Positions 34,992 to 56,775 of a DNA stretch of 64,000 nucleotides are shown one piece after another. Under the pieces are notes generated by a model, which saw only the letters and a list, made by a program, of their open reading frames with translations, was not told where the DNA came from and searched no databases. Position numbers and translations under genes: made by a program. The stretch is from Puniceicoccaceae bacterium 5H (GTDB lineage: Bacteria > Verrucomicrobiota > Verrucomicrobiia > Opitutales > Oceanipulchritudinaceae). The DNA is taken from assembly GCA_009772895.1 (NCBI GenBank), contig WOUP01000001.1, positions 248,001 through 312,000 of the forward strand. The letters run 5' to 3'. The stretch's first letter is position 1, and every line of letters begins with the position of its first letter.

Positions 34992-35801
34992 CTACTCGTC
35001 CGTCGAGGGATCGAGCACTTCGGCCAGTGCTTCGGCGACAAAGGTGTCGGTTTCCCGGGCCTCTTCGCTCCGGCGGCAGAGATACGTTTCGTGCATTGGA
35101 TGGCAGCAGATCTCCAGTCCCGCAGAACGCAAGATGGCTTCGACGCCCGACTTCGTGGCGGCCCACCAGTTTGTTGGGTCTTCCGCGAGTCGCTGTTCGA
35201 TGAACGCCATCTTGGGCCACCACGGCTCCCTCATGCGTTCACGCGCGCCGAAGTCCAGTTGAGCCGGCGCCTGTTTGTCTGACGCTTCGCCTTCCGGGCT
35301 GGTCAGCGTCTGGAAGACCATCCAGCCGTCCATCTTGCGCACGAGCCCGTCGAGGGCCAACAGCGGGTAGCGCAGGTGATAAAACAGCCCCATGAAAAAG
35401 ATCCCGTCGTAGCGCTCCGCTTCGCGAATGGTGTTGTAGACGGAGGCCTGGCGGAAGCGAATCTTGTCCGTAAGGCCGAAAGCAGCGGCGGCCCACCGCG
35501 ACTGCTTCAGGTAGTGCGGGTTGATCTCGACTGCATCGACCTCGGCACCGCGCTGTGCCAGTTGAATCGCGTAATACCCGGCGTTACTGCCCAGTTCGAG
35601 CACCTTTTGGCCCGAAAGATCTGCGGGCAGCACCTTGGCCAGCGGCTCCCATTTGAAGGCGGGAAAGTCGCCAAGCGGGTGGTCCGGCGCCGTCTGCGTT
35701 CCGTCGGGCAGGTGCAGGTTCTGGAACCAGGGCCCCAGGGCGGCAACCTTTTGTTCGGTGGGAGTCCGGGGATTCGAAAAATCGGTCTGTAGCTGTGCCA
35801 T
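34992..35801 (-). CDS. SAM-dependent methyltransferase, CmoB-like / TIGR04290-type
   Basis: VLELGSNAGYYAIQLAQRGAEVDAVEINPHYLKQSRWAA (SAM motif), FFMGLFYHLRYPLLALD; resembles mo5U34-tRNA methyltransferase-related families. Confidence 0.78.
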   Translation of the reverse strand: MAQLQTDFSNPRTPTEQKVAALGPWFQNLHLPDGTQTAPDHPLGDFPAFKWEPLAKVLPADLSGQKVLELGSNAGYYAIQLAQRGAEVDAVEINPHYLKQSRWAAAAFGLTDKIRFRQASVYNTIREAERYDGIFFMGLFYHLRYPLLALDGLVRKMDGWMVFQTLTSPEGEASDKQAPAQLDFGARERMREPWWPKMAFIEQRLAEDPTNWWAATKSGVEAILRSAGLEICCHPMHETYLCRRSEEARETDTFVAEALAEVLDPSTDE

Positions 35802-35803
35802 AT

Positions 35804-36895
35804 TCAGGAAACTAACGCCGGGTGACGGCATTCGCGGAAGTGCGCTTCGAGTTCTTGGGCGCGATGGTCGGCGGTGTGGGAGGTTAAAATGCGCTTGCGG
35901 GCGGCCATGCCCACCGCCCGGAGGTCGTCGGCGGGCATCTGCTGCAGGAAGCTCAAGGTATCTTGCGGGCCTTCGCTGATCAGGATTTCGCGACCTAGTT
36001 CGAACAGCGTGTCCAGCCCGTCCCAGTAGTCGGAAATGACCGGTGTGCCGCAGGCCGCCGCCTCGAACAGGCGCACGCTGGGGGCATAGCCCGTCTGCTT
36101 CATCGCGGCTCGGGTGATGTTGAGCGTAGCGCGTTGCTGATTGTAGAATTTACGGTGTTCGGCGGGGGGCAAATGGTCGATGCGCTCCACGTTTTGCGGC
36201 CACTCGATGGAATCGGGATATTGCGGACCCGCGACAACGAAACGCCCCTGCGGCCATTCCCGTGCTGGCTGCAGCATCAGCCGGTCGACGCCGGGCTGGC
36301 GGTCATCGCTGTAGGTGCCGAGGTAACCGAGATCATGCGTGTCGGGCCGCGCTTCGGGGAAATACAGGTCCGGGTCGACCGAGCAGTAGAGCGGGCGGCC
36401 TCGCGTGGCCCCATAGTCACGCTCCAGCCGACGTAGCAGCGGTCCACCCGTGAACGAAAGGTAGACGTCGAAGCGTGGAATCAGCCCCGCAGAAAGATAC
36501 TCCTCGTCCCCCTGGGCCAGCTTCTCGAGCGTCACTGGCGTATCGATATCGTAAAAGCCGACGACGCCGCGGGCGGTATCGCAGGCCCAATTGCCGACGG
36601 CGACGCCTTCGGGCACGTAGGACCCCAGCACGACCATGTCGGCCTCACGCACGCAGTTGGTGAAGCGTTGCTTGAGGTCTGCGAGTGATTCGTAGAGATG
36701 AGTCTGCGCAAACTCCGGTTCGGGCAGATCCCTGTTGGAGGCATACCACGGTACGTCGCGCTCCAGAAACGTAATGTTGTGGCCGCGCCGCCGCAAGGCC
36801 TTGAGCAGTGCCCGGTAGGTGGTGGCGTGGCCGTTGCCCCACGAGGAGGTGATCGAGAGGCCGATGAAAACGAGGTTGAGGCGTGCTTGACTCAT
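35804..36895 (-). CDS. CgeB-like glycosyltransferase (copy 1)
   Basis: 363 aa; IGLSITSSWGNGHATTYRALLKALRRRGHNITFLERD...; C-terminal APSVRLFEAAACGTPVISDYWDGLD. Confidence 0.78.
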   Translation of the reverse strand: MSQARLNLVFIGLSITSSWGNGHATTYRALLKALRRRGHNITFLERDVPWYASNRDLPEPEFAQTHLYESLADLKQRFTNCVREADMVVLGSYVPEGVAVGNWACDTARGVVGFYDIDTPVTLEKLAQGDEEYLSAGLIPRFDVYLSFTGGPLLRRLERDYGATRGRPLYCSVDPDLYFPEARPDTHDLGYLGTYSDDRQPGVDRLMLQPAREWPQGRFVVAGPQYPDSIEWPQNVERIDHLPPAEHRKFYNQQRATLNITRAAMKQTGYAPSVRLFEAAACGTPVISDYWDGLDTLFELGREILISEGPQDTLSFLQQMPADDLRAVGMAARKRILTSHTADHRAQELEAHFRECRHPALVS

Positions 36896-37992
36896 GAGAC
36901 GCTGACAAGGGGTTCTGAACGTTGCAGCAGCACCGCTTCCAGCTCGGCGGCGCGATGGGCGTAGGTGTGTTCTTGCAAGAGTCGGGTGCGTGCACGGCGA
37001 CCGATCTCCCGAGACTCTCCGAAGCTCAGGTTTTTCAGGATGTCCGCGACTTCCTGGCCACTGTGCGCCACGAGGCACTCCTGGCCGGGCTCGAGAAATT
37101 GCTCGATCCCCTTCCACGCATCGGTGATCAGGCAGGCCCCGGCACCGGCGGCCTCGAAAACGCGCGTAGCTGGCGAGTAGCCCATCTTGGCCATGCTCTC
37201 GCGGCTGATGTTAAGCACCGCGCGGGGGCTGACGTTAAAGGCGTTGTGGTCACGCGTATAGAGGTGCCCCATTGGGTTGACGTTGGGTAGTTCCGGTGCG
37301 TTCTGGTCCCAGCCGTTCCCGGCGAGCAGGAAGCGTTTTTCGGGCAGGATCTCAGCTGCCTTGAAGAAAAACTCCATCACACGCTCTTCCCGGTCGGGCA
37401 GACGGTTGCCGGCGAAATTGAGATCGCAGGCAAAGCGCTCCTCCTCCGGCACCGGGTGGTGCGACTCCGGGTCGAGGGCGTTGTAGAGCGGGATGCACTG
37501 TTTGGCACCGAGAGCCGTAAAAGCCTGCACCACGCCCGGACCGCCGCCGTAAGTCAGGATCGCATCATAAGCGGGAATGTGCTGGCGCATCGGATCCTGA
37601 GGATCGTTGTCGATCCGTTCGAGGGTGGCCGGTGCATCCACATCCCAGTAGATGACCTGGGCACCGCGGCTCTGGTGAGCCAATACGGCGGCCTCCAACT
37701 CTTCATCGAATACGCCGACGCCGCTGGCCTTTACCACCACATCTGCATCCGACGCGTCCTCGAGGCATTGTTGTAGCGCCTCTCGAGTCGCCGGGTAGAC
37801 GACGCTGCGCGCGTAGGGCGGTTCGTCGATATCGCGGTGTTGCTGGCGATCAAAGGCATCCGGCTCGTAAAACGTGATCTGGTGCCCGCGTTCGTGAAAG
37901 GCGCGCAACATGCCACGGTAATAGGTGGCCGCACCGTTCCAATAGGCCGAGACCAGGCTGGATCCAAAAAAGGCGATTTTCAATTGGGGCAT
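36892..37992 (-). CDS. CgeB-like glycosyltransferase (copy 2)
   Basis: 366 aa; FFGSSLVSAYWNGAATYYRGMLRAFHERGHQITFYEPD; YSPATRVFEAAGAGACLITDAWKGIE. Start/stop overlap with copy 1. Confidence 0.78.
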   Translation of the reverse strand: MPQLKIAFFGSSLVSAYWNGAATYYRGMLRAFHERGHQITFYEPDAFDRQQHRDIDEPPYARSVVYPATREALQQCLEDASDADVVVKASGVGVFDEELEAAVLAHQSRGAQVIYWDVDAPATLERIDNDPQDPMRQHIPAYDAILTYGGGPGVVQAFTALGAKQCIPLYNALDPESHHPVPEEERFACDLNFAGNRLPDREERVMEFFFKAAEILPEKRFLLAGNGWDQNAPELPNVNPMGHLYTRDHNAFNVSPRAVLNISRESMAKMGYSPATRVFEAAGAGACLITDAWKGIEQFLEPGQECLVAHSGQEVADILKNLSFGESREIGRRARTRLLQEHTYAHRAAELEAVLLQRSEPLVSVS

Positions 37993-37995
37993 GAT

Positions 37996-39135
37996 TCAGG
38001 CGTGTGCGGTTTGGGAAATGCGACGGGCGGAGTTGGCTTGCCGTTGCGTCTTGAGCAGGTCGATGATCTGGATCAGCTCATCGACCCGATGGCGGCAGGT
38101 GTGGCGGCTGCGAATGGTGTCAAACGCCCGCTGCGCCATCTCCGCCGCCGCTTGAGGCTGGTGTTTCAGAAAATAGAGGTGGCGTTCCATCTCCTCGCGG
38201 TCGTGCGCGACCAGAAAGTCCGAACCGGGCGAGAACAAGTGCTCGGCGTCTTCCCACGGCGCGCTGATGAGCGGGATGCCGCAGGCCATGGCCTCAAATG
38301 GACGGATGGTGGGAATGCCCGGCAGGCTCTCGCGGTAGTAGCGGCGGGGCACGTGCACCGTCATGCGGAAGCGGGCAAACACCTCCGGGGCGCGGAAATT
38401 GGGCAACCAGCCGGCATACTCAATGCCCGCTTCATGCAGCGCTTCCTTCGCGCTGTCAGGATAGCGTACCCCGTGGACCCGCGCGGAGAGATTCAGGTTT
38501 TTGACTGGTTCGAGGAGGAACTCGTGCAATTCCGCCGTGCGCTCTTCATCGCCCCAGTTACCGATCCAGACCACGTCACCCTCGATGTGATCGCGGGGCA
38601 GGGGGCGAAACACGCGCGTATCGGCGGCTTCGTGCCATGTCCAGGCCTGCTCGATCCACTTGTTCTCGAGATAGCGTTGGCGGAGGATCTCGCCAAAGAC
38701 CAGTGCACCGTCGTAGCCCGAGAGATCCAGATTGCTCATCTCCTCCGGAACGCTGACGGCCCGGTGGTGCGTATCGTGAAAGAGCAGCACGTAATGCGGG
38801 GAAGCCTTGTGGTGGTCGCCGATCATCTTGATCAGCGCCGGAGGCGTCCACTCATGCACGATCACTGCATCCGCATCCGCGAGCAGGGCATCGAGCTCCA
38901 GCTCGCTGGGCAGGTAGAAGCGGGGGCGCAAAAGCGGATAGTAGTCCCGCAAGGCTGTCAGCGGCTCGGCACCGGCCTCTTCGGCCAAGTGCTGCAGGCT
39001 CCAGTTGTTGAACTCCTCATAGATGGCGACGTTGTGGCCACGATGGAGCAAGTCTGTCGTGATACCCCGCAGAAAGTGCGCGTTGCCGTGGTTCCAGTCT
39101 GAGGCGAGGGAATGATAAAACCCGATTATGTTCAT
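37996..39135 (-). CDS. CgeB-like glycosyltransferase (copy 3)
   Basis: 379 aa; FYHSLASDWNHGNAHFLRGITTDLLHRGHNVAIYEE; GIPTIRPFEAMACGIPLISAPWEDAE. Confidence 0.78.
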   Translation of the reverse strand: MNIIGFYHSLASDWNHGNAHFLRGITTDLLHRGHNVAIYEEFNNWSLQHLAEEAGAEPLTALRDYYPLLRPRFYLPSELELDALLADADAVIVHEWTPPALIKMIGDHHKASPHYVLLFHDTHHRAVSVPEEMSNLDLSGYDGALVFGEILRQRYLENKWIEQAWTWHEAADTRVFRPLPRDHIEGDVVWIGNWGDEERTAELHEFLLEPVKNLNLSARVHGVRYPDSAKEALHEAGIEYAGWLPNFRAPEVFARFRMTVHVPRRYYRESLPGIPTIRPFEAMACGIPLISAPWEDAEHLFSPGSDFLVAHDREEMERHLYFLKHQPQAAAEMAQRAFDTIRSRHTCRHRVDELIQIIDLLKTQRQANSARRISQTAHA

Positions 39136-40313
39136 CCGAAGGGAGGTTGGAAATGCGAGGGAACGGAGAAACTGATGCCGGGCTGGCTGACGGAGGTGGC
39201 CGTCTCGTCATGTGCGGACGTCATTTCGCCGTAGAGGTTGTGGTGCGCCCGCCCGAAGGCCTCGAGTGAGTAAAAGCGTGCCCGCTTGAGCGCCCGTGAA
39301 GCCATTTCGCGCCGCCGTTCTTCATCCAACGCCAACTGGCGCAGCGTGTAGTGCCAGGCCTGAGGTGCATCGCAGGATACGTAGAGGGCCGCATTGCCCC
39401 ATACCTGGCGCAGCGACGGGATGTCGCCCAACACCAGCGCGCAACCGGCCAACGCGGCTTCGAGCGGAGCCAGTCCGAAAGGTTCATAGCGAGCCGGATG
39501 AGCAAAGATGGAGGCGGCGGCGAGCACCTGTCGCATCTGTTCGCCGCCGAGAAAGCCGAGCCCACGTAGTGAAGGCGCCGCCTGAATGGCTCCCTGATCT
39601 GGGTGCTTCGTCTCGCCGGCGACATAGATTGGCCAGCCAAGTCGCTCACCCGCATAGTTCAGGACGTCGAGGTTCTTGCCTTCGTCCCAGATGCGTCCCG
39701 CGGCCATGACCAATGGCTGTTTCTGCACGTTGGTGTAGAATGCAGCGGAGGCCCGACCGTTGGGGATGACACGTGCATTGCGGATGTCAGCGCGATAGAC
39801 GCGCAAGGCCTCCAGCATGGCACGTGTCGGCGCAACGACGACGTTGGCTCGTTCGAGAGCCTGACAGACAAGCTCTCTATATGGCGCCCATTCCTGGGGC
39901 GGCAGGGCACCTTTGACGGCCTGAAACCATGAGTAGACGCAGGAGTGGGCCGTTAGCACGGTCGGAACTTCCCAACGAGGGGCGGCCGCGCTGTAATCGT
40001 TGCAGTGGATCAGGTCCGGTTGTACCTCGTGCACAATCTCCTGCAGCGCCGCTTGCGCTTCCGCCACGTCATCCCACGGATCGTCCATCCACTCGAGCTT
40101 CTGGGGCAGGCATATCAGTTCGCAGCCCAGCTTTTCTGCTTGTTCCCGCTGATCTGACGTCGGCAAGCGCCCGCGCGCCACCAGCGCTACCTCGACGCGG
40201 TAAGGCTCGAGCGCCTTGATCAACTCCATGGCGTAAGTCCAGACACCGCCAAGGGTGTCGGCCGTCATTAAAACGCGGCGAACCGGATGAACTGTGGAAA
40301 ACGCAGCCTCCAT
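39132..40313 (-). CDS. Glycosyltransferase family 4
   Basis: MTADTLGGVWTYAMELIKAL; ARYEPFGLAPLEAALAGCALVLGD (EPFGL GT4 motif). Confidence 0.85.
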   Translation of the reverse strand: MEAAFSTVHPVRRVLMTADTLGGVWTYAMELIKALEPYRVEVALVARGRLPTSDQREQAEKLGCELICLPQKLEWMDDPWDDVAEAQAALQEIVHEVQPDLIHCNDYSAAAPRWEVPTVLTAHSCVYSWFQAVKGALPPQEWAPYRELVCQALERANVVVAPTRAMLEALRVYRADIRNARVIPNGRASAAFYTNVQKQPLVMAAGRIWDEGKNLDVLNYAGERLGWPIYVAGETKHPDQGAIQAAPSLRGLGFLGGEQMRQVLAAASIFAHPARYEPFGLAPLEAALAGCALVLGDIPSLRQVWGNAALYVSCDAPQAWHYTLRQLALDEERRREMASRALKRARFYSLEAFGRAHHNLYGEMTSAHDETATSVSQPGISFSVPSHFQPPFG

Positions 40314-40595
40314 CTAGCGCCGGGTAAACTTGTTGAACCGACTCGTGCTGCCGTCCGAAGTCTTGTCCTGATACACGAAGGCAAGCTGCTGCTCTTCAAA
40401 GGTCGAGAAGAAGGTATCCCAGTCGATATCCTCCAGATTCTCCTCGGCGTAGCCGGGGAAGTTGATGCGCAACACTCCCGCGTGCTCCGCATCACCACTG
40501 GCAGTGGAAGACACACGCGCGGGCTTGCCGTCGCGAGCTTCAGCCCATTGGCGAATGGTGTCGTGGTCGGTGGTCGTATGAGATTCTCCAGACAT
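40314..40595 (-). CDS. Small uncharacterised protein in glycosyltransferase operon
   Basis: 93 aa, TTTDHDTIRQWAEARDGKPA...GVLRINFPGY...WDTFFSTFEEQQLAFVYQD; adjacent to flanking genes. Confidence 0.65.
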   Translation of the reverse strand: MSGESHTTTDHDTIRQWAEARDGKPARVSSTASGDAEHAGVLRINFPGYAEENLEDIDWDTFFSTFEEQQLAFVYQDKTSDGSTSRFNKFTRR

Positions 40596-40610: not shown

Positions 40611-41654
40611 TTAGCTGTTCATGGTGACCAGCGCCTTCATGAAGCCCTCCGGGCGGTCGTGCATGACTTCGAAGGCCTGCTGGATCTCTTCGAGGGAGAA
40701 GGTGTGGGTGTAGAGCGGCCGGGGATCGAGTCCTTCAAGACCCTGCAGTTCCACCGCCCGCTTCATGCCGTCGAGGTAGACGAGTGGGTCGCGTTCATGC
40801 GCGTTGATCACATCGAGGCCGAGCCAGTTCCAGTGCTGCATGTTTACTTCGCGCAGCCCATCCTGGTGAAAGCCCGCGATGACCATCCGCCCGCGCTCCC
40901 GGAGGAGGAATGTCGCCAAGTTGACGGGTTCGGCGGCGCCGGTTGCTTCGATCACGACGCTGATGCCTTGATCCCCGGCCCAACCTTGCACCTCCTGCAC
41001 CGTGGCGTCGCGATCGCCTTGATCCTTGGAGGTAAATTCCGCGCCATATTTCTCCGCCATACGCAAGGCAGACTCACGACGGCTGACGACTGCCACCCGG
41101 GCACCCGTGCGGGCACAGAGCGACACCAGCAACGTGCCGAGAAAACCGGCGCCGATCACGACTACGGTATCGTTGGCAGTCACCTGGCTGCGGCGAAACA
41201 CGTTGATGGCACAGCCCAAGGGTTCACCCGGCATCGGGCGACCCTCGAGCGATTCCGGCAAGATCACGATCTGGTTGCGGTGAGCGACGTCATATTGGGC
41301 GAAAGCGTTGTAGCTGAGCGCCGCGACACGATCGCCGATCTGCCATTCATCGACGTCGCTGCCGAGCGCAACGATATGGCCCCAGCCTTCGTGCCCGGGA
41401 TTGCCCGGCTCGACAGGATATTCAAACCATGGGCGGCCTTCCCACACGGGCAGGTTGGAACCGCAAACCCCGCAACCTTCGAGACGGATCAGCACTTCGT
41501 CCGGCTTCGGCTCGGGCACCTGCACGTCTTCCAGCGACCATTGTCGGGGGCCTTTCAGCACGGCGGCCTTCATCGTAGCGGGCACGTTTTCCGTCGGCGG
41601 TCGTCGCGAAGGGAGGGTGACAGATTCTTCTTCAGTGGTAATAGGAGCGATCAT
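40611..41654 (-). CDS. Zinc-dependent (MDR) alcohol dehydrogenase-like protein
   Basis: GCGVCGSNLPVWEG, GNPGHEGWGHIVALGSDV, VVIGAGFLGTLLVSL Rossmann motif. Start at MIAPITT. Confidence 0.85.
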   Translation of the reverse strand: MIAPITTEEESVTLPSRRPPTENVPATMKAAVLKGPRQWSLEDVQVPEPKPDEVLIRLEGCGVCGSNLPVWEGRPWFEYPVEPGNPGHEGWGHIVALGSDVDEWQIGDRVAALSYNAFAQYDVAHRNQIVILPESLEGRPMPGEPLGCAINVFRRSQVTANDTVVVIGAGFLGTLLVSLCARTGARVAVVSRRESALRMAEKYGAEFTSKDQGDRDATVQEVQGWAGDQGISVVIEATGAAEPVNLATFLLRERGRMVIAGFHQDGLREVNMQHWNWLGLDVINAHERDPLVYLDGMKRAVELQGLEGLDPRPLYTHTFSLEEIQQAFEVMHDRPEGFMKALVTMNS

Positions 41655-41655
41655 T

Positions 41656-43719
41656 TCAGGATAAGGTTGAGACGGGTGAGAAAAGTTCCTGACGGCGTTC
41701 CAACCAATGGAAGAGCTTGCCGACACCCTGGCGCCAGCCGACTTGCGGCTTCCAGCCGGTGGCTTCCTGGAACTTGGTGAAATCGGTCACGTAATAGCGC
41801 TGATCGCCGGTCCGCCATTCGCCAAAGACCACTTCGATCGGTTGGCCGCGCAGCGTTTCCAGTTGCTGCAGCAACTCCAGCAAGCTGATGGAGTTCTCGA
41901 TACCGCCGCCGAGGTTGAAGGATTGACCGGCGCAGACATCAGGGTTCTCCAGCGCCAGCGCGAACGCCCGCACCAGATCGGCCACATAGAGAATGTCGCG
42001 CACCTGCTTGCCGTCGCCATAGAGGGTGATGTCTTCGCCGCGCAGCGCCTTGCGAATAAAGTGGGCGACCCAGCCCTGGTCTTCGGTGCCGTGTTGGTGC
42101 GGCCCGTAGATGCAGCTGAGGCGGAAGACGGTGGCGGGGATCCCGAAGGAACGTGCGTAATCCAGGATATACTGATCCGCCGCGCCTTTGGAGCAGCCAT
42201 ACGGGCTGTGAAAGTCCAGATGACGATCTTCGCCGAAACCTTCGTACTTCGGCTCTACCGGACGGTAGCGCTCGTTGCCTTCGATCAACTCCACGTCTTC
42301 CATGCCACCATAGACTTTGTTGGTGGAGGTGAAGATAATCGGGATGCGCTTCGACCGGCCACGGATGGCTTCGAGGATGTTCAAGGTCCCGCCGACGTTG
42401 ATGTCGAAGTCTTCGCGGGGATTGATCAGGCTGGTCGTGACGGCCACCTGGGCGGAGAAATTGAATACGGCTTTGGCTCCGGCGACGGCATCGGCCACGG
42501 CGAAGCGATTGCGCACGTCGCTCAACTCGACCTCCAGCTGATCGCCATAGCGTTCGAGCAGGTCGTTGAGGTTGTTTTCGACCCCGGCCCGCGAAAGGTT
42601 GTCGAACACGAGCACACGCTCGCCCTTGTTCAGGAAGTGTTCGGCAACGTTGCTGCCGATGAACCCGGCGCCGCCAAAGATGAGCACGTAGTCGTCGGCC
42701 TCGGAGCGGTTGACGTGGTGCGTGCGGTCGGCCCGGGCCTCATGACCGAAACGCGGGGTGGGGAGATGCCCGAATGCTTCCACGCCTTCCAGGCCGTCAC
42801 TCGCCCACAGCCGATAGAGCAGCTTAGGCGTTCCATCTTCGTTGCGGATGCCAAAGTGGTAGTGCCGCTCGTCGGCATGGAAGCCGTCTTGATGCGAAAG
42901 GTTCGGATCGAGGTCGTCGATCGAATACCAGTAGAGCCGGTCGGCCGGGGCGCGCAGCGCGGAAAGGAAGGACTGCAATTGACGGAACTCGTCATGCCGC
43001 CACGTGGAGTAGCCGGCCTCCGTGATCCATAGCTCCAGATGCCCGTTGCCGCTCTGGTTCAATACCTGCCGGACTTCTTCGAGCGGTTCATCCCAATCCT
43101 GCCAATCATGGTCCCAGATTTCGGGAAAGCCGTGGATGGAAACCGCGTCGAGGTGACGCAGCACGTCGCGCTTGGCCAGATTCCAGAAGAATTGACCTTC
43201 CACTGGACTGATGCCCCCCAGGACGACCTTCTTGCCACACTGTTTGGCCCAGTAGGCGGCCATCCCGATCATGGACGCAAACTTGGCCCATTCTGGATCG
43301 TGGTGAAAGTCCCACTCGACGTGGTTGTTGGGCTCGTTCCAAAGCTCGACCCACTCAAAATGCTGTCCGTAGCGCTTGATGACTTCGTCGACGAAATCGG
43401 CGTAATCTTTCAGTTCGCGCGGCGGCGCATTGGTGCGCGGCGCTTCTCCAAGCGAGGGCGGCGTATAGTTGAGGCAGGGGAGGATCTCAACTTCCTTGGC
43501 CAGAACCGGCAACAGCCAGTCATACCAGGCGCGGCCCTCCGGGCGGTGGTAGTCTGCCCAGGAAAAACCGATGCGCAAATGCCGGACGTTGAGCTCGCGC
43601 AGTGCTTTCAACACGCTGTAAACGCGCTCTTCTTCGCCCGGACGGAACCATTCGGCAAAGCCGAGCGGCGGGCGGGCCGTCGTGCCGTTTTCGGATGAAT
43701 GGGTGGGGGCAAAAGTCAT
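41656..43719 (-). CDS. Fusion protein: N-terminal beta-xylosidase-like glycoside hydrolase and C-terminal NAD-dependent NDP-sugar epimerase/dehydratase
   Basis: 687 aa; GH part has WNEPNN (E129) and WITEAGYST (E234); C-terminal part has IFGGAGFIGSN and SPYGCSKGAADQY (YxxxK). One continuous ORF, junction near aa 340 (nt ~42700). Confidence 0.85.
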   Translation of the reverse strand: MTFAPTHSSENGTTARPPLGFAEWFRPGEEERVYSVLKALRELNVRHLRIGFSWADYHRPEGRAWYDWLLPVLAKEVEILPCLNYTPPSLGEAPRTNAPPRELKDYADFVDEVIKRYGQHFEWVELWNEPNNHVEWDFHHDPEWAKFASMIGMAAYWAKQCGKKVVLGGISPVEGQFFWNLAKRDVLRHLDAVSIHGFPEIWDHDWQDWDEPLEEVRQVLNQSGNGHLELWITEAGYSTWRHDEFRQLQSFLSALRAPADRLYWYSIDDLDPNLSHQDGFHADERHYHFGIRNEDGTPKLLYRLWASDGLEGVEAFGHLPTPRFGHEARADRTHHVNRSEADDYVLIFGGAGFIGSNVAEHFLNKGERVLVFDNLSRAGVENNLNDLLERYGDQLEVELSDVRNRFAVADAVAGAKAVFNFSAQVAVTTSLINPREDFDINVGGTLNILEAIRGRSKRIPIIFTSTNKVYGGMEDVELIEGNERYRPVEPKYEGFGEDRHLDFHSPYGCSKGAADQYILDYARSFGIPATVFRLSCIYGPHQHGTEDQGWVAHFIRKALRGEDITLYGDGKQVRDILYVADLVRAFALALENPDVCAGQSFNLGGGIENSISLLELLQQLETLRGQPIEVVFGEWRTGDQRYYVTDFTKFQEATGWKPQVGWRQGVGKLFHWLERRQELFSPVSTLS

Positions 43720-43721
43720 GG

Positions 43722-44843
43722 CTAAAGGGTCAATCCGCGTTGGCTGAGTTCGGATCGGGCGGCTTCGGTATGGTCGGTGGCGATTTCGCCTTCCAGCCAG
43801 CCCGTGAGTTCACGCATCCCTTCTTCCAGGGGCACCTCGGGGGCATAACCCAGGATGCGACGTGCTTTCGAGATGTCGGCGAAGCAGTGGCGGATGTCTC
43901 CCACGCGATACTTGCCAGTAATCTCGTAGCCGAGGTAGCTGCGGTCCATGGCCTCGGCGAGGCGTTGCGTCAAACGCTCAATGGTGATCGGCTGACCGCT
44001 GCCGACGTTGAAGACTTCGCCGCTCGCCTCCTCATTGTCCAAGGGCAGGCGGCAGCAACGCGCCACATCCCGAACGTGCACAAAATCACGTTGCTGCTGG
44101 CCGTCTTCAAAGATCTGGGGCTGCTTGCCGTTGAGGAAGCGGGAAGCGAAAATCGCAATTACCCCGGTATAGGGGTTCGAGAGCGCCTGGCGCGGCCCGT
44201 AGACATTGAAGAACCGGAAGGCGGTCGTCGGGATGTTGTAGGCCTTGCCCGTGATCAGGCACATGCGCTCCTGGTCGAGCTTGCCCAGCGCATAGATGGA
44301 AGACGGCTCCGGCTCCTTGGATTCGGGGGTCGGCAACGGGGCAAGGGGCGCGTCATGATCGCTGCGCAACTCCCATTGGCCGTTCTTCAGTTGTTCGAAG
44401 CTACGCTCGCACACATTGCAGCTTCGACCTTCGGGGTCCTGATAGATGCCTTCACCGTAAATGCTCATGCTCGAGGCGACCATCAACCGTTGCACGGGAC
44501 GCTCGATCAGGCACTGCAGCAAATTGGCCGTGCCCTGATTGTTGATCGCCGTATAGCGCGCGATCTCATACATGCTTTGCCCTACGCCCACGGCGGCGGC
44601 AAAGTGGTAGACGGTGTCGATTCCTTCGAGCGCATGACGGATGTCTTCGATCTTGCGCAGATCGCCGCGAAAAAACTCTACCTCAGGATTCAGGTAGGCA
44701 GGGATTTCGGCCGATTCCCCATGCACCTGCGTCTCGAGAGAATCAATCACACGGACTTGGTGTCCTTGGGCCAGGAGTTCATCGGCAAGATGAGAACCGA
44801 TGAATCCAGCCCCTCCGGTAATGAGGATGCGTCGTGATTTCAT
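43722..44843 (-). CDS. NAD-dependent epimerase/dehydratase
   Basis: RILITGGAGFIGSHLADELL, SSMSIYGEG, SIYALGKLDQE, FFNVYGPRQ. Confidence 0.88.
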   Translation of the reverse strand: MKSRRILITGGAGFIGSHLADELLAQGHQVRVIDSLETQVHGESAEIPAYLNPEVEFFRGDLRKIEDIRHALEGIDTVYHFAAAVGVGQSMYEIARYTAINNQGTANLLQCLIERPVQRLMVASSMSIYGEGIYQDPEGRSCNVCERSFEQLKNGQWELRSDHDAPLAPLPTPESKEPEPSSIYALGKLDQERMCLITGKAYNIPTTAFRFFNVYGPRQALSNPYTGVIAIFASRFLNGKQPQIFEDGQQQRDFVHVRDVARCCRLPLDNEEASGEVFNVGSGQPITIERLTQRLAEAMDRSYLGYEITGKYRVGDIRHCFADISKARRILGYAPEVPLEEGMRELTGWLEGEIATDHTEAARSELSQRGLTL

Positions 44844-49508: not shown

Positions 49509-50453
49509 CTATTGCAGCCCAGGGTGCGCTTCACGCCCCCACAGTTCGGAAGGGTAGATGCCTTCGGCGATCAAACTATTGAGGCGGGCTTGCACTTGCG
49601 GTAAGTCGTCGCGATAGGTCATGCCAAACCACGTAGCGTCCGTCGACGGCACCTTCACCCGCAGTTTGTCCTGCTGGATGCCCTCGGTCACGGCGCCCGG
49701 GAGATAAAACTCGTCTTTGGAAAGATTGCGATCGGGTGCCTGCAGGAAGGTCTGCATCGACTTTCCCAACAGATCAAAAAACGCTGGCGTGAAGCCAAAG
49801 CAGTTGAGGGATACGGGCGTGCTCGGTGCCAATTCTTCGGTGTCGTCGCCGGAAACCCCACGGATGCGCTCGTCGGCATGCTGCTCGATGTGCGTGTATT
49901 CGGTCAGCTCCTGCAGTTTGCCGTTCTCGACTTTGCAGACTCCACGCGAGACCGGACCGTGAGGAGACAGCGTGCGGTGCAGCGGGTAGGCGACCAGCAC
50001 CGCTTCATCCGGTCCGTCTGACTGGGGCTTCGCCTCGCGCAGCGCTCGAATCAAGGTCTCGTAGGCTTCGCGCCCATAGAAGTCGTCGGCGTTGATCAGT
50101 CCGAAGTTCGTATCCACCTGCCCCCGGGCCGCCCACAAGGCGTGACCGGTGCCCCAAGGCTTTTGGCGCTCGGGCTGATTCGACAGATCCAGCGGCAGGT
50201 CGTCGGCCTTCTGATAGGCGTAGCGGTAGCGCAAGTGATGCTTGAAGCGGCTGGCCACCTGGCGCTCGAAATCGGCTTCCAGTTCGGGCCGGATCACAAA
50301 AACAAAATCCGTGAAGCCCGCGCGCTGGGCATCGAAAAGGGAGTAGTCCAGCAGGGTCGAATCGTCCGGACCAAGAGCCTGCAGTTGCTTGAGGCCGCCG
50401 AAGCGACTGCCCATACCGGCGGCCAGGATGACGAGGGTGAAACGTTCTTTCAT
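49509..50453 (-). CDS. Nucleotidyltransferase (sugar-phosphate NTP transferase)
   Basis: LVILAAGMGSRFGGLKQLQALGP; INADDFYG. Confidence 0.85.
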   Translation of the reverse strand: MKERFTLVILAAGMGSRFGGLKQLQALGPDDSTLLDYSLFDAQRAGFTDFVFVIRPELEADFERQVASRFKHHLRYRYAYQKADDLPLDLSNQPERQKPWGTGHALWAARGQVDTNFGLINADDFYGREAYETLIRALREAKPQSDGPDEAVLVAYPLHRTLSPHGPVSRGVCKVENGKLQELTEYTHIEQHADERIRGVSGDDTEELAPSTPVSLNCFGFTPAFFDLLGKSMQTFLQAPDRNLSKDEFYLPGAVTEGIQQDKLRVKVPSTDATWFGMTYRDDLPQVQARLNSLIAEGIYPSELWGREAHPGLQ

Positions 50454-50462
50454 GGGGTTCCT

Positions 50463-51626
50463 CTATCTGGCTGGGGTGCTCTCGACCAGCTTATCAGCAC
50501 CGCCGGTTTCATTTTGGCGGGCCTCGTAAAATTGTCGCAAGTGCTGCAGGATGCGTTCGGAGGTGTGTCCATCCCAGAGCGGAGGGGCCTGGCAATCGAA
50601 ATCCGGATCGTCCAGCACACGGCGGAAGGCGGCGTAAATTTTCTCCGGGTCCGTGCCCACCAGTTGGTTGCCGCCGTACTCGCAGGTCGAGGGGCGTTCG
50701 GTGTTGTGCCGCAACGTCAGGATCGGCTTGCGCAGGCAGGTTGCTTCTTCCTGCAAACCGCCAGAGTCGGAAAGCGCTACGCGGCAGTGCATCAACAGAT
50801 TGATAAAATCGAGATAGCCCAGCGGGGGCAGAATGTGAAAGTGCTCGCTGTTTTCGATCTCTTCCAACCAGCCGAACGTTTCCAACCGAGCGCGGGCGCG
50901 TGGGTGCATCGGCCAGACGAGCGGCAAGCGTTCCCCGCAACTGTGCAACACGTCCAGCAGCCCCCGGAAGGTCGCCTTGTCATCCACATTGGAAGGACGG
51001 TGGAGCGTGATCAGGCCATAGCCGTTGTCGGGCAGCTTCAGGTTTTGCCAGTAACCGCGCGCCTCGGCCTTTTCCTGGAAGTGGAGCAGGGTATCGATCA
51101 TCACGTTCCCGACAAAGCGGACCTGATTCTCTTCGGTGCCCTCGTTGCGAAGGTTGGTGACACCACTCTGTTCCGAGCAAAAGAGCAGGTCGCTGAGTCG
51201 ATCGGTCACCAGACGGTTCAACTCCTCCGGCATACCGCGGTCGTTGCTGCGCAGGCCCGCCTCGACGTGAAAGAGCGGAATGTGGCGATGTGCCGTCGCC
51301 CAGGCGGCCGAGGCGGTCGAGGTGACGTCGCCGACTACGATCACACCATCCGGTTGCAGTGTTTCCAGCAGGGCATCGAAACGCTCGATGATGCGGGCCG
51401 TCTGTTGGGCAAGATTGCCGACGCCGATGTCCAGATTGGAATCGGGCTCGCGGATACCGAGGTCGGCGAAGAACGCCTTGCTCATCTTGTCATCATAGTG
51501 CTGGCCGGTGTGGACCAGTGTGATGCGAACGTCGTCGACCTTTTCGAAGGTCCGCATGAGGGGCGCAATCTTGATGAAGTTGGGTCGCGTCCCGGCGACA
51601 ATTACCAAATGGATAGGATCAGACAT
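50463..51626 (-). CDS. wecB: UDP-N-acetylglucosamine 2-epimerase (non-hydrolyzing)
   Basis: LVIVAGTRPNFIKIAPLMR, HVEAGLRSNDRGMPEELNR, LSDSGGLQEEATCLRKPILTLRHNTERP. Confidence 0.93.
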   Translation of the reverse strand: MSDPIHLVIVAGTRPNFIKIAPLMRTFEKVDDVRITLVHTGQHYDDKMSKAFFADLGIREPDSNLDIGVGNLAQQTARIIERFDALLETLQPDGVIVVGDVTSTASAAWATAHRHIPLFHVEAGLRSNDRGMPEELNRLVTDRLSDLLFCSEQSGVTNLRNEGTEENQVRFVGNVMIDTLLHFQEKAEARGYWQNLKLPDNGYGLITLHRPSNVDDKATFRGLLDVLHSCGERLPLVWPMHPRARARLETFGWLEEIENSEHFHILPPLGYLDFINLLMHCRVALSDSGGLQEEATCLRKPILTLRHNTERPSTCEYGGNQLVGTDPEKIYAAFRRVLDDPDFDCQAPPLWDGHTSERILQHLRQFYEARQNETGGADKLVESTPAR

Positions 51627-51638
51627 GGGAAGAGAAAG

Positions 51639-52886
51639 TCAGGCACGGGCAGGTTGCCACTGGTGTTCGGGGTTGCTGCTCAGGAGGTCCAGGTAGACGG
51701 CGGCAAAGCGGTTGCGGTTGTAAGTGGTCTGGACAAATTCGCGGCCATTGCGGCCCAGCCGGGCCCGCATGGTGGCATCCAGAAGCGGAACCAGCTTGGC
51801 GAGCATGTCGTCGGCCGATTCGGGAGTGAAATTGTGGCCACCCTCCGCTTCGTCCACGATCCGTGCCGCGTCGCCCGCCACGCCGTTGAGGATGGGGCAG
51901 GTCATGGCCATCGCCTCGAAGAGCTTGCTCGGCAAGACGGTGCGGAAAAGGTCCGTATCGCGCAGGTGTACGAGGGCAATGTCCGTCAGACTCCAATAGC
52001 GCGGCATATCGCTTTTGGGCACCCGCCCCGTGAGGATCACGTTCTGCAGCCCCTTGGCTTGAGCCTCCTCTTGCAGGCGCTTCCGGTCGGCGCCATCGCC
52101 GATAATCATGAAAACGACTTCAGGATGCTGCGTGCGGATGCGTTCGGCCACCTGCAGCACGACGTCCAGGGCCGAGGCCATCCCGACCGTGCCTACATAT
52201 GAAATGACGATCTTGTCCTGCAGGCCAAAAGCGGCTTCCAGCTCGGCGTCGCGGTCCATTGGGTGAAAGTGGTCCGGGTCGGCGCCGTTGGGGATCACCG
52301 TCAGATCGCCGGGAAGCACTCCTTTGCCCCGCAGCTTCTCCGCGTATCCCTCGCCAACCGTCACGATGTGATCTGCCGAGCGGTACATCAGCTTTTCCAG
52401 CACTTCCAGAAACTGATAGATGGGCGACGAGGGCTTCATCGCTCCCACGGCGGCGATCGACTCGGGCCACAAGTCACGAATCTCGAGGATGAAGGGCACC
52501 CGGCGCAACTTGCTCAGTAGCGTGCCGGCCCAACCGGCGAAAAACTGCGGCGAGGTCGCAATCAGGCGGTCCGGGCGCTTTTGCAGGAGCCCCGCAAAGA
52601 CGGCCGCGACCATGTAGCTGAGAAAATTGAGGATGCGTTTTACGAAGCCGGCGTTGGGCGCGAGGTACGTCCACACGCGGACGACCTTTACGCCCTCGAT
52701 CATTTCCGTCTGGTAAAGCTTGTTGCGGTAGCCTTCGTAAACCACGCCGTCCGGGACGTTGGGCACTCCAGTGATGACGGTCACTTTATGGCCGGCGTCG
52801 ACCCAGCGGCGAGCAAACTCGTACCAGCGCGAAGCGGGCGCGTTGCCTTCGGGATAGAAATAGTGCGACAGAAGCAGTATTCTCAT
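51639..52886 (-). CDS. Glycosyltransferase family 4 (WcaI/WbuB-like)
   Basis: RILLLSHYFYPEGNAPASRWYEFARRW; VLPSKLFEAMAMTCPILNGVAGDAARIVDEA. Confidence 0.88.
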   Translation of the reverse strand: MRILLLSHYFYPEGNAPASRWYEFARRWVDAGHKVTVITGVPNVPDGVVYEGYRNKLYQTEMIEGVKVVRVWTYLAPNAGFVKRILNFLSYMVAAVFAGLLQKRPDRLIATSPQFFAGWAGTLLSKLRRVPFILEIRDLWPESIAAVGAMKPSSPIYQFLEVLEKLMYRSADHIVTVGEGYAEKLRGKGVLPGDLTVIPNGADPDHFHPMDRDAELEAAFGLQDKIVISYVGTVGMASALDVVLQVAERIRTQHPEVVFMIIGDGADRKRLQEEAQAKGLQNVILTGRVPKSDMPRYWSLTDIALVHLRDTDLFRTVLPSKLFEAMAMTCPILNGVAGDAARIVDEAEGGHNFTPESADDMLAKLVPLLDATMRARLGRNGREFVQTTYNRNRFAAVYLDLLSSNPEHQWQPARA

Positions 52887-54622
52887 ACGAGCGAGGGAGA
52901 GGAAGCGGACGCACTACCATGGCAGGTCGTATGCCAGGTTGAAGAAGAGCCTTGCTCCACCTCCAGTTTGTAGTCCAGCTGCCGAGCCTCGGTCCCGGTC
53001 TGCCCTTCACCGATCAGCGACGGCCGCTCCAGCTCCCGATGAAAGAGCGGGTGGTACGGGCTAGAGGCGGTCTGCCACGTCAAATCTGGAGGCAAGGAAA
53101 CCGACAGGGTATTTCCGTGAGAATCGCACAGTCTTTGCTGGTCATCCCGCCACTCCACCTGAACCTGAGGCGCAAGATGCAACCGGCTGACGAAGGGCGC
53201 ATTGCAGCTTGCCTGAAGGCGATCTTGCCAAAGGGAGGCAGTCTCCGTGCAGGTCCACTGCCGCGTATGGGTGTAGCGACGCCGGCCCTGCGCGTATGAT
53301 TTGAGTGTACCGCGCACCTTCAACGCCTTCTCATCGGCCTGATCGAGCACGCGCTCCATCCGGCTCTCGCGGGCGGCACGAAACGCCGACCAAAGCTCGA
53401 TCTGCTGGAGCGATTCCACCTCAACCGTGTTGTGGCCTGCGATGGAGCGATCCAGCTGACGCTGTGGCCCGGGCAGGTAGTGGTAAACGCCGGTGTCGGT
53501 GATGAAACGCTGACCGCCCACCGAAAGCTCGAACGAGCCAAAGTCGGCGTGCGCGTGGCCGATTTGGTGCCGGGGACCAAATGTTCCCAGGTCTGCGATC
53601 AGGCAGAGCTTTTCACTACGGAAGCCGAAATACCCGGCTGCCGGTAGCGCCCAGCCTCCCTGTTGCCTCGGCAGCTGCACGAGTTGCTGGGCTTCGAAAA
53701 ACGAGAGCAGGGACGACGAGCGGTGGGCGATCTCGAAGGCGCTGTCGTTGAAGAGTGCGATATCGCCATCTGGATGCTGCATACAATGCAACGCGCGGGC
53801 TCCCGATTGCAGGCGCGCGCGCGCCACAGCTTGGGCCTCATGTTGAAGGAACGCTTCTGCCTGGCTCAAAGCGTAGAGCAGCCGCGCCTGATACATGGGG
53901 GAGCGCTCATAGTGCATGCCGTCGCTCAAGAACTGGCCATCCAGCTCACTTTGAAGTAGGGGCCAGGCGGACTTCCAGAGAGTCTTGGCCCACTTGCCTT
54001 CAAAAGCGGCCGCAACCATGGTCAGCGCAATTGCATTTTCCAGCAGGTGGTTCGCCTGTAGGTGCACTTCCAGATTGCGTCGGAGACACTCGGCCTGCTG
54101 CCAAAGGCTGCGCCACCAACGTTCGCGAAAACTCTGGTTTTCGAGCGCGGGAAATCCCCGTTCAGCAAAATAGCCCACCCAATTTTGCAGGCGCAGCGAA
54201 ATGACATAGGGCTCCCAGGCATCGGTCGAAACATCCGCCGGATGGCGGGCGATCCAGTCTTCGACCATGCTTGCCGCGTCAGCTGGCTCGAGGCTCCACA
54301 GCCACTCGTGATAATGCAGGTTGTAGCGCCATAGCTTTGAAGCTTCCCCGACCGCCCACTTGTCTTGGGCAGAGGCTGTGCGCTGCTCGTTCAGGAAGCA
54401 CCAGCGGCCCTGCCGGATCTCCGCCGCAGGGTTGAAATCCGCTCCGCGTGCGGCCAATAGCGGACGCTGCAGGCGTCGTTTCCAGCGCGGAAAGGCCGGG
54501 GCGCCATCGAAGGCCGGGGCGGGGCGGAATCCCCGCGTTTTCTGGCGGAGTTGAGCCGTGACCTGCTGGGGCTTCAGGCGCTGCAGCGTGCGAAAGTAGA
54601 GCAGTGCCTGGTTCAGTTTCAT
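52883..54622 (-). CDS. Heparinase II/III-family (alginate lyase-like) protein
   Basis: 579 aa; NWVGYFAERGF, HLQANHLLENAIAL, DGMHYERSPMYQ, GHAHADFGSFELSVGGQRFITDTGVYHY. Confidence 0.9.
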   Translation of the reverse strand: MKLNQALLYFRTLQRLKPQQVTAQLRQKTRGFRPAPAFDGAPAFPRWKRRLQRPLLAARGADFNPAAEIRQGRWCFLNEQRTASAQDKWAVGEASKLWRYNLHYHEWLWSLEPADAASMVEDWIARHPADVSTDAWEPYVISLRLQNWVGYFAERGFPALENQSFRERWWRSLWQQAECLRRNLEVHLQANHLLENAIALTMVAAAFEGKWAKTLWKSAWPLLQSELDGQFLSDGMHYERSPMYQARLLYALSQAEAFLQHEAQAVARARLQSGARALHCMQHPDGDIALFNDSAFEIAHRSSSLLSFFEAQQLVQLPRQQGGWALPAAGYFGFRSEKLCLIADLGTFGPRHQIGHAHADFGSFELSVGGQRFITDTGVYHYLPGPQRQLDRSIAGHNTVEVESLQQIELWSAFRAARESRMERVLDQADEKALKVRGTLKSYAQGRRRYTHTRQWTCTETASLWQDRLQASCNAPFVSRLHLAPQVQVEWRDDQQRLCDSHGNTLSVSLPPDLTWQTASSPYHPLFHRELERPSLIGEGQTGTEARQLDYKLEVEQGSSSTWHTTCHGSASASSPSLV

Positions 54623-56775
54623 CGTTGCTGGTCCAGTTGCTCGGCGGCCTCCAGCGTGGCCTGCGTTACTTCAACCAATTCCAGGAAGGAGATCGGCATT
54701 GGTTTTCCTTCGCGCAGCGCGGCTGTAAAGGCGTCGACTTCGGCCTGATGGCCCTTGTCCTGGGTCGATTTGTAGGTACCGCGGGCTTGTGCCCATTGGT
54801 GGGTATGCAGCTTGCGGAAGTTGTCGAGTTGCAACACGCCGCCGCTGGCAAACACCTCGAGGCGCTCCTTGGGCAGCGACTTGCTGCCATTGGCGAAATA
54901 GTGCACCGTGCCGATCGAGCCGTTTTCGAAGCGCAGCTGGATGCTGGCCGTATCGATCGGGTGGTCCGCCGGGGCGGGCATGCCCACTGCGCGGACTTCC
55001 GCGATGGGATGACCGGCGAGGTAGCGCAGCAAATCGATAAAGTGGCAGCCTTCGCCGCGAATGCGTCCACCGCCCGAGTTGACATCCTGGGTCCAGTGAT
55101 CTGCCGGAATCGCGCCGGCATTGACGGACATCACCATACTGATCGGCCCCGACTTTTGGCTCAGCAGCTGTTTCATCTGTCGGACCAAGGGCGCGAATCG
55201 GCGGTTGAAGCCCACCATGACTTGTGGGTTCAAGCCTTCCGATTGCAAGTTCTGGTAGGATTTCAGTACGTCCTGCAACTCGTCCTGCGTGAGGCAAAGC
55301 GGTTTTTCCACAAAGACGGCTTTCCCTGCCTGCCAGGCTTGATGGACCAGCCGCGCATGTGAGTTGTGCGGCGTCGCGATGACGACTGCCTGCACTGCCG
55401 GGTCTTGCAACACATCCTGTAGCTCGGAGGTCGCCGTGGCGAAGCCGAGTTTGCGCCCGAGCACCGCAGCGTTGGTGCCGCCGGGCGCACAAATGGTCTG
55501 GAGCTTGGCCCCCGCCTTGGCAAACGCCGGAAGCAGCACCTTGCCCGCGAAACCGCCGGCCCCGACCGCGCCGATCCCCAGTTGACTGCCGACGGCTTTG
55601 GGCTTGGCGCTTTCGTCGAGTTGAATGCGCTGGGCCCAGCGATTGGGTTCTGCCGTGGGCGCCTGGCCGCTGCCTTCATACTGCAGCACAATGCCCAGTG
55701 CTTCCCGATTACTGATCTGGCCATAGGCCTCCACTGCGTCCTTGAAGGAATAGCGGTGCGTAATCAGCGGCGCGACTTGCAGTGAACCACGCTGCAACTG
55801 GTCGAGCACGGCTTCGAAATTCCGTTGCTCGGTCCAGCGCACAAAGCCGATGGGGTAGTCGAGCCCCATGCTCTCATAGCGCGGATCGTAGCGCCCCGGC
55901 CCGTAAGAGCACGAGACCTGGAAGGAGATTTCCTTTGCGTAAAAGTGGTTGCGGTTGAGCTTGAGCCCCGTGACGCCCACGAGCACGACACGCCCGCGCT
56001 GACGGCAGACTTGAGCCGCATCGTTGGCCGGCGCATCGCTGCTGGTCGACGCAGTAATGAGCACGCCGTCGACTTCGCGACCGGTATTGGCGGCCTTGAT
56101 TGCCTCCACCGTATCCATGCCGGGCTGCAGCTGGACCGTCTTCACGCCGAACTGCTCTGCGAGGCGGCACTTCTGCGGATCGAAATCGGTCCCGATGACA
56201 TGACAGCCGTGGGCCTGGAGCAACTGGACCGCAAGCAGACCGATTAGACCAAGGCCCATCACGACGATGGTCTCGCCAAGCGTAGGTTCGAGCAAGCGGA
56301 TGCCTTGCAGCCCAATCGAGCCAGTGACGGTGAAGGCGGCTTCATCGAAGTCCACGCCGTCCGGAATGTGCGCGCAGAGGTTGCGCGGCACGGAAACCAC
56401 CTCGGCGTGGGAGCCGTTCGAGACCACGCGGTCCCCCGGCGAAAAGTCGGTCACGCCTTCGCCCACGGCCAGCACAACGCCGGCATTGCAGTATCCGAGC
56501 GGAATCGGCTGATCCAGCTTGGTCTGCACGGCTTCCCAAGTGGCCTGAACTCCATCGGTACGCGCCTTTTGCAGAACTTCCTTCACACGGTCGGGCTGCT
56601 GTCGGGCCTTGTCGATCAGGCTGGCCTGGCCGAACTCGACCAGCATGCGCTCCGTTCCCAGCGAAATGAGGCTGGAGCGGCTCTCGATCAGCAGGGCACC
56701 GCGTTTGACTTGTGGGGCCGGCACTTCGACCAGTTGAGTGTCCCCGTTACGCAGGCTTTGCAAAATCTGTTTCAT
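54619..56775 (-). CDS. Bi-domain oxidoreductase: MDR alcohol dehydrogenase plus Gfo/Idh/MocA domain
   Basis: 718 aa; GVVLAVGEGVTDFSPGDRV, VMGLGLIGLLAVQLL, then IGAVGAGGFAGKVLLPAF and FVEKPLCLTQDEL. Confidence 0.88.
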   Translation of the reverse strand: MKQILQSLRNGDTQLVEVPAPQVKRGALLIESRSSLISLGTERMLVEFGQASLIDKARQQPDRVKEVLQKARTDGVQATWEAVQTKLDQPIPLGYCNAGVVLAVGEGVTDFSPGDRVVSNGSHAEVVSVPRNLCAHIPDGVDFDEAAFTVTGSIGLQGIRLLEPTLGETIVVMGLGLIGLLAVQLLQAHGCHVIGTDFDPQKCRLAEQFGVKTVQLQPGMDTVEAIKAANTGREVDGVLITASTSSDAPANDAAQVCRQRGRVVLVGVTGLKLNRNHFYAKEISFQVSCSYGPGRYDPRYESMGLDYPIGFVRWTEQRNFEAVLDQLQRGSLQVAPLITHRYSFKDAVEAYGQISNREALGIVLQYEGSGQAPTAEPNRWAQRIQLDESAKPKAVGSQLGIGAVGAGGFAGKVLLPAFAKAGAKLQTICAPGGTNAAVLGRKLGFATATSELQDVLQDPAVQAVVIATPHNSHARLVHQAWQAGKAVFVEKPLCLTQDELQDVLKSYQNLQSEGLNPQVMVGFNRRFAPLVRQMKQLLSQKSGPISMVMSVNAGAIPADHWTQDVNSGGGRIRGEGCHFIDLLRYLAGHPIAEVRAVGMPAPADHPIDTASIQLRFENGSIGTVHYFANGSKSLPKERLEVFASGGVLQLDNFRKLHTHQWAQARGTYKSTQDKGHQAEVDAFTAALREGKPMPISFLELVEVTQATLEAAEQLDQQR

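Follow-up and report, generated by a model that had tools for sequence, protein, structure and literature searches.

Glycosidases in glycan biosynthesis clusters and related enzymes

Exopolysaccharide biosynthesis operons are known to encode glycosidases in some cases, PslG being an example (PMC6813494, PMC11912335). PslG is a retaining endo-β-glucosidase of family GH39 encoded within the Psl glycosyltransferase (GT) cluster (PMC11912335), with E165 as the acid/base and E276 as the nucleophile (PMC11912335, PMC6813494). Both PslG and its hydrolytic activity (E165/E276) were reported as required for Psl production (PMC6813494), although the requirement for PslG is disputed by Baker et al. (2015), going by the citation of that work in PMC6813494. 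Among the CDP-tyvelose 2-epimerases (TyvE), TaTyvE is a tetramer with a Thr124-Tyr164-Lys168 triad, in which the substitutions N125A and K126A abolished activity and Gln205 touches the sugar (PMC13098431). The same paper describes a faster TaTyvE rate once the C5-hydroxymethyl group is removed from the substrate (PMC13098431).

The fusion described here shares with PslG of the P. aeruginosa Psl operon (PDB 5bx9, 4zn2, 9g17) the same barrel with its NEP and TE pair, and both are encoded in GT-rich glycan biosynthesis clusters. However, PslG is a membrane/periplasmic protein of about 410 residues in the PDB chains and has no epimerase, whereas the glycoside hydrolase (GH) of the fusion is cytoplasmic by sequence, without a hydrophobic N-terminus, and is joined to an SDR epimerase. 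With TyvE (1ORR; TaTyvE, 9RL0), its best sequence match, the fusion has in common the triad, the TNK segment, the loop Gln and an Arg, but it carries an added N-terminal GH domain, reads VAV in place of the VAM segment, and probably acts on a different NDP-sugar.

A single reading frame for two enzymes

The window, by which we mean the whole 64,000-nucleotide stretch analysed from Puniceicoccaceae bacterium 5H (contig WOUP01000001.1, positions 248,001 to 312,000), carries the fusion gene on its minus strand [Table 1]. An earlier note, made from the letters alone, had proposed a 687-aa single ORF at 41656-43719, and this was confirmed: the ORF runs from an ATG at 43719 to a stop at 41656 with 0 internal stops over 687 codons. 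The ORF overlaps the start of the downstream gene and is separated by 2 nt from the upstream gene EPI1, an operon-like spacing. No signal peptide was found on the fusion and the maximum 19-residue hydropathy (KD19) within the first 60 residues was 0.21, so that the protein is apparently cytoplasmic, as the same note had supposed.

The junction lies in a low-confidence linker with one open frame throughout. In the sister species of the same genus (G001), the junction is in the same frame within a 717-codon open frame, and the protein is 80% identical to the 687-aa protein overall and 81% in the GH half. Since the sister species and 80 scanned loci from independent genomes carry a single ORF in one frame, we rejected an assembly artefact or frameshift, and for practical purposes we also rule out a sequencing error at this point; homologues are not always two separate genes. 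The full-length model reached a pTM of 0.86 although linker residues 324-339 are disordered, which suggests a defined or preferred arrangement of the GH and SDR domains, as read from the whole-protein pTM.

Table 1. Features of the fusion gene, its cassette and the permuted stand-alone GH genes (window positions, except where a locus is named)
Feature	Position	Strand	Basis or remark
GH~epimerase fusion gene	41656..43719	minus	687 aa, single ORF in 86 loci
GH domain core, residues 17-318, (βα)8 barrel, PslG/GH39-like fold	42766..43671	minus	AlphaFold2, Foldseek
E129 codon, predicted acid/base, end of β4	43333..43335	minus	86/86 invariant; model position
E234 codon, predicted nucleophile, β7	43018..43020	minus	86/86 invariant; model position
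Interdomain linker, residues 319-343	42691..42765	minus	pLDDT low at 324-339; alignment variable here
SDR epimerase domain, residues 344-680, CDP-tyvelose 2-epimerase-like	41680..42690	minus	Pfam, PDB sequence match, alignment
T466-N467-K468, TNK segment (triad Thr and residues essential in TaTyvE)	42316..42324	minus	alignment
Y507...K511, SDR catalytic Tyr and Lys	42187..42201	minus	sequence
EPI1, second SDR epimerase/dehydratase, directly upstream	43722..44843	minus	neighbour in nearly all loci
Zn-dependent alcohol dehydrogenase-like (Zn-ADH); ORF start inside fusion ORF end	40611..41726	minus	adjoins fusion in sister species too
93-aa ORF between ADH and GT4, without Pfam family	40314..40595	minus	weak matches in several cassette loci
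GT4 glycosyltransferase	39132..40313	minus	cassette gene
CgeB-like glycosyltransferase a (PF13524)	37996..39135	minus	cassette gene
CgeB-like glycosyltransferase b (PF13524)	36892..37992	minus	cassette gene
CgeB-like glycosyltransferase c (PF13524)	35804..37117	minus	true start probably further downstream
TIGR04290-like methyltransferase	34992..35831	minus	281.6 bits, NCBIfam cut-off 300; last cassette gene in most loci
Permuted solo GH	L029:10998-11951; L030 ~11998-12957; L031:10998-11945
Permuted solo GH	L036:2371-3258; L043:2289-3173; L112:26547-27527
Permuted solo GH	L113:13998-14942; L115:14013-14960; L122:11094-12116

The glycoside hydrolase half

The AlphaFold2 model of the GH half, built on 59 homologues (pLDDT 87, pTM 0.86), has eight barrel strands (residues 19-23, 47-53, 78-84, 123-127, 164-170, 192-197, 229-235 and 261-265), with N128-E129 after strand 4 and E234 at the end of strand 7, which is the clan GH-A layout. 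The earlier note's TIM barrel and its two apparent catalytic glutamates, E129 within WNEPNN and E234 within WITEAG, agree with this model. Foldseek against the PDB returned PslG first (5bx9, E=5.9e-15, TM 0.69, 21% identity) and the Caulobacter β-xylosidase next (4ekj, E=4e-10), PslG leading the non-PslG matches by about 4-5 orders of magnitude. A profile search of PDB sequences gave a β-xylosidase alone, weakly (E=0.0056), and no Pfam or NCBIfam model scored above cut-off over residues 1-340 (GH53, 0.007; GH39, 0.61). The half resembles the GH39 β-xylosidases (6uqj, 4ekj, 6yyh) weakly in sequence and also in fold, but it lacks their accessory domains and lies under the Pfam GH39 threshold (PF01229, E=0.61, 9.3 bits against a cut-off of 26). 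Because this curated sequence threshold is missed, the GH half is described as PslG/GH39-like in fold and is not assigned to GH39.

The failure of Pfam and NCBIfam to recognise the GH half could be taken as a sign of a module that binds glycans or has a structural role without catalysis. We consider this quite improbable, given that both glutamates and the NEPN/TE motifs are invariant in 86/86 fused sequences and in seven permuted relatives, and that the GH dN/dS between two species is about 0.07, a rough value (NG86) as dS exceeds 1 and is near saturation. We prefer to read the half, with its retaining-type catalytic pair, as a predicted retaining β-glycosidase of the PslG/GH39 type.

The epimerase half

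The earlier note's SDR-type epimerase was equally well founded. Pfam Epimerase matches residues 345-680 (E=1.9e-51), GGAGFIG(SN) fits the Rossmann pattern GxxGxxG, and Y507-x3-K511 is present. The best PDB sequence matches are the CDP-tyvelose 2-epimerases 9rl0 (3e-84, 286 bits) and 1orr (1.5e-83), the next family being UDP-glucose 4-epimerase (1e-42, 150 bits). By alignment, the TaTyvE residues map to T466, Y507, K511, N467, K468, Q548 (Gln205) and R636 (Arg299), and these are conserved across the fused family with the exception of one sequence. The VAM segment (Val83-Ala84-Met85 in TaTyvE) reads V425-A426-V427, with Val and Ala kept and Met replaced by Val, and the DQGW Gln is conserved. SDR dN/dS between the two species is about 0.13 (NG86, rough for the same near-saturated dS >1); both halves are under purifying selection.

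As the TaTyvE active-site residues are conserved, C2 epimerisation of the TyvE type is our best guess for the chemistry of this half. As the cassette showed no recognisable CDP-paratose pathway genes, the NDP-sugar probably differs from that of TyvE. The TaTyvE rate effect indicates that a pentose substrate is acceptable to that enzyme, and a UDP-xylose synthase (UXS) gene lies in the cassettes of most alphaproteobacteria; it is plausible, by analogy, that in such clusters UDP-xylose is the substrate and UDP-lyxose the product. The window cassette has no UXS, which leaves the substrate of this epimerase uncertain; one UXS is encoded elsewhere in the 5H genome (60%).

Distribution of the fusion, with probable loss and decay

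A scan of public genome contigs, with a query built from fused proteins and hence biased towards fusions, gave 141 relatives. In 80/80 of the loci retrieved, GH and EPI2 (the SDR half) lie in one ORF in the same neighbourhood, apart from a few copies that are frameshifted or run off a contig (L064 shortened by an apparent frameshift, L100 by a contig end). On a plasmid of Xanthomonas sacchari R1 (L026:7828-11087) the GH part has an apparent frameshift, with two tblastn frames and an annotated CDS that starts late. The fusion occurs in at least five phyla: Pseudomonadota, including many alphaproteobacteria; Bacteroidota (Pontibacter, Dyadobacter, Fulvivirga, Cesiribacter); Thermodesulfobacteriota (Geomonas); Gemmatimonadota and Planctomycetota (a MAG each). 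By tblastn, plasmid copies were detected in Rhizobium, Agrobacterium and Geminicoccaceae, among others. The idea that it is unique to the 5H genome was rejected, as the sister species and the 80 scanned loci carry it. Thus, the earlier note was right about the fusion itself, but its description of the pairing as unusual does not hold for an architecture this widespread and conserved in a glycan-biosynthesis cassette. The fusion was absent from the other 53 sampled relatives besides the sister species, where the best GH-query E was no better than 3.5e-9, and this absence fits a horizontal gain. A viral origin was also considered and dropped; a BFVD search with the whole model returned ordinary epimerases and GHs, none seen with the fusion architecture.

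Neither the fusion nor its cassette turned up in the literature searched, and searches on TIGR04290/TIGR04295, the CgeB cluster, the inositol module and guessed S. meliloti pSymB locus tags gave no published function. The fusion architecture is conserved and apparently unpublished, while both kinds of enzyme are already known. Among the records examined, RefSeq labels the fused proteins only as 'NAD-dependent epimerase/dehydratase', and given such labels the glycosidase half, like the product of the cassette, has escaped notice.

In the EPI2 tree, unfused Sinorhizobium and Ensifer EPI2 nests among fused alphaproteobacterial copies (98/95 support), and hence this lineage, whose genomes carry the permuted GH described below, has most likely lost its GH half. 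Further unfused EPI2 copies branch near locus L048. One might suppose that the fusion only keeps two independent pathway enzymes at equal dosage and in one place, without physical cooperation, and the clusters of Sinorhizobium/Ensifer, Roseomonas, Paracoccus and Bradyrhizobium, with unfused EPI2 and a separate permuted GH, agree with this. However, the fusion has been retained in at least five phyla across deep divergence and its interdomain arrangement is predicted confidently, which makes this explanation unlikely. Against it also stands Microvirga aerophila (L055:7798-9822), where the fused epimerase has lost the catalytic Tyr and Lys (PLDCSS, SSSK; equivalents of Y507L and K511S) and is still fused. 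Judged by these residues, this half is catalytically dead, while an intact separate EPI2 adjoins the fusion and the GH glutamates are retained, a combination that speaks for the fused epimerase acting as a tether or scaffold, in the Microvirga lineage at least. In G206, of the same phylum as 5H, a GH remnant without the NEPN half (L124:10980-11558) lies with EPI1, ADH, GT4 and CgeB genes alongside on the opposite strand, and is probably a product of decay.

The cassette and a proposed role

The order in the window is EPI1, fusion, Zn-ADH, 93-aa ORF, GT4, CgeB-like GTs a, b and c, and the TIGR04290-like methyltransferase. Other loci keep this order and have either ADH with Gfo/Idh/MocA or, in their place, a radical-SAM protein of TIGR04295. 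The typed cassette genes included no flippase, polymerase or exporter. A second module near the cassette, found in Sinorhizobium, Ensifer, Paracoccus, Rhizobium CB3090 and partly in Dyadobacter, comprises INO1, a histidine phosphatase, a stand-alone GH, and a polysaccharide pyruvyl transferase with an F420-hydrogenase-like protein; INO1 was not detectable in the 5H genome in a search that had no positive control. The cassette is common to plant symbionts, soil and marine bacteria of several phyla.

The earlier note had offered salvage coupled to nucleotide-sugar formation as one meaning of the pairing; in such a scheme, the sugar freed by the GH would feed the nucleotide-sugar pool used by the epimerase. 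Apart from the GH/epimerase pairing itself, nothing speaks for this. A freed sugar would require a kinase and a pyrophosphorylase, and neither these nor a sugar importer recurs among the typed cassette genes (a nucleotidyltransferase occurs once each in the Bradyrhizobium L029 and G186 cassettes). The protein also lacks a signal peptide and its annotated neighbours include no importer, and we give salvage very little credence.

We favour instead, at a rough probability of 0.45, a biosynthetic pair in which a TyvE-type C2-epimerase serves as the platform for a cytoplasmic retaining β-glycosidase whose task is to trim or release the glycan made by a mobile cassette. The cassette would make a small or cell-associated glycan, for which the NAD-dependent C-terminal half would invert C2 of a (rare) NDP-sugar, and GT4 and the three CgeB-like GTs would consume the product. 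The N-terminal half would act in the cytoplasm on the nascent glycan as a retaining (endo-)β-glycosidase, trimming wrongly built chains or freeing the finished oligosaccharide, and the epimerase half, probably tetrameric like TyvE, would keep it at the assembly site. A glycosidase would thereby be physically built into the intracellular supply of nucleotide sugars. The two domains, their active-site residue sets, the conserved fusion and the cassette are evident from sequence and models, and the two halves probably work as active enzymes in a single glycan pathway and are kept together by selection; the substrates and the tetramer platform we infer, as we do the trimming or release role, by analogy with PslG. 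The Microvirga case is as expected if the epimerase half can serve as a tether. Against the proposed role, PslG resides at the inner membrane/periplasm whereas the fusion has no export signal, and the Sinorhizobium/Ensifer epimerase has no fused GH, its loss indicating that the covalent link is dispensable there.

The main rival to trimming or release is transglycosylation, in which the GH half would move a glycosyl unit between intracellular oligosaccharides or glycolipids and make a linkage that the GTs cannot. The retaining-type pair, the cytoplasmic location beside four GTs and the invariant aromatics W24, W54, W65, W157, W240, W264 and Y265, which would suit an acceptor site, are all consistent with it. 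Nevertheless, PslG, the nearest fold, is a hydrolase (PMC11912335), and no sequence feature here divides transglycosidases from hydrolases; we regard a transglycosidase as a rather unlikely alternative to the biosynthetic pair with a trimming or releasing glycosidase.

Elsewhere in the window (49509-56775) lies a separate polysaccharide-type cluster with a UDP-GlcNAc 2-epimerase, a GT and a heparinase II/III-like protein, which also encodes a 718-aa fusion of a Zn-ADH with a Gfo/Idh/MocA oxidoreductase.

A circularly permuted relative of the GH domain

In the stand-alone GH, named 'beta-xylosidase' in RefSeq, strand 4 comes first (MIEAxxWNEPNN) and the N-terminal segment of the fused form comes last. 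Its alignment to the native window domain breaks into two pieces in exchanged order (2-184 to 121-299 and 183-293 to 5-117). Rotation of that domain at residue ~119 gives a single end-to-end alignment (2-293, 35% identity, E=2e-53), with a raw score of 458 rotated against 301 native and at most 67 for shuffles over all pairs. The catalytic glutamates and NEPN/TE motifs are kept in 7/7 permuted relatives. By these alignments, the stand-alone GH is a natural circular permutant of the fusion's GH domain. We rejected it as a plain unfused ancestor of the fusion, as it is permuted and the Sinorhizobium unfused EPI2 nests within the fused ones.

To our knowledge, few examples of naturally permuted glycoside hydrolase barrels are known (GH70/GH13), and the permuted solo GH adds to them. 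GH70 relates to GH13 by circular permutation of the barrel, as the stand-alone GH does to the fused domain, but the GH70 enzymes are extracellular α-glucan makers of clan GH-H, whereas the permuted GH is of the GH39/PslG type, starts at β4 and belongs to a biosynthetic cluster. Conceivably, the GH half founds an undescribed intracellular family of glycan-editing or transglycosylating enzymes with two topologies in one mobile inositol/pentose-type glycan cassette, the epimerase scaffold of which may become a pseudo-enzyme; we hold this wider proposal only tentatively. The pairing of native and permuted GH barrels is the most surprising element of the system. The permuted GH is absent from the 5H genome and present in G186, a relative from the same order. 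In Dyadobacter and Rhizobium CB3090, the native-fused and permuted forms lie in one region, and with both in a single gene cluster, how the permutation arose and what it does can be tested.
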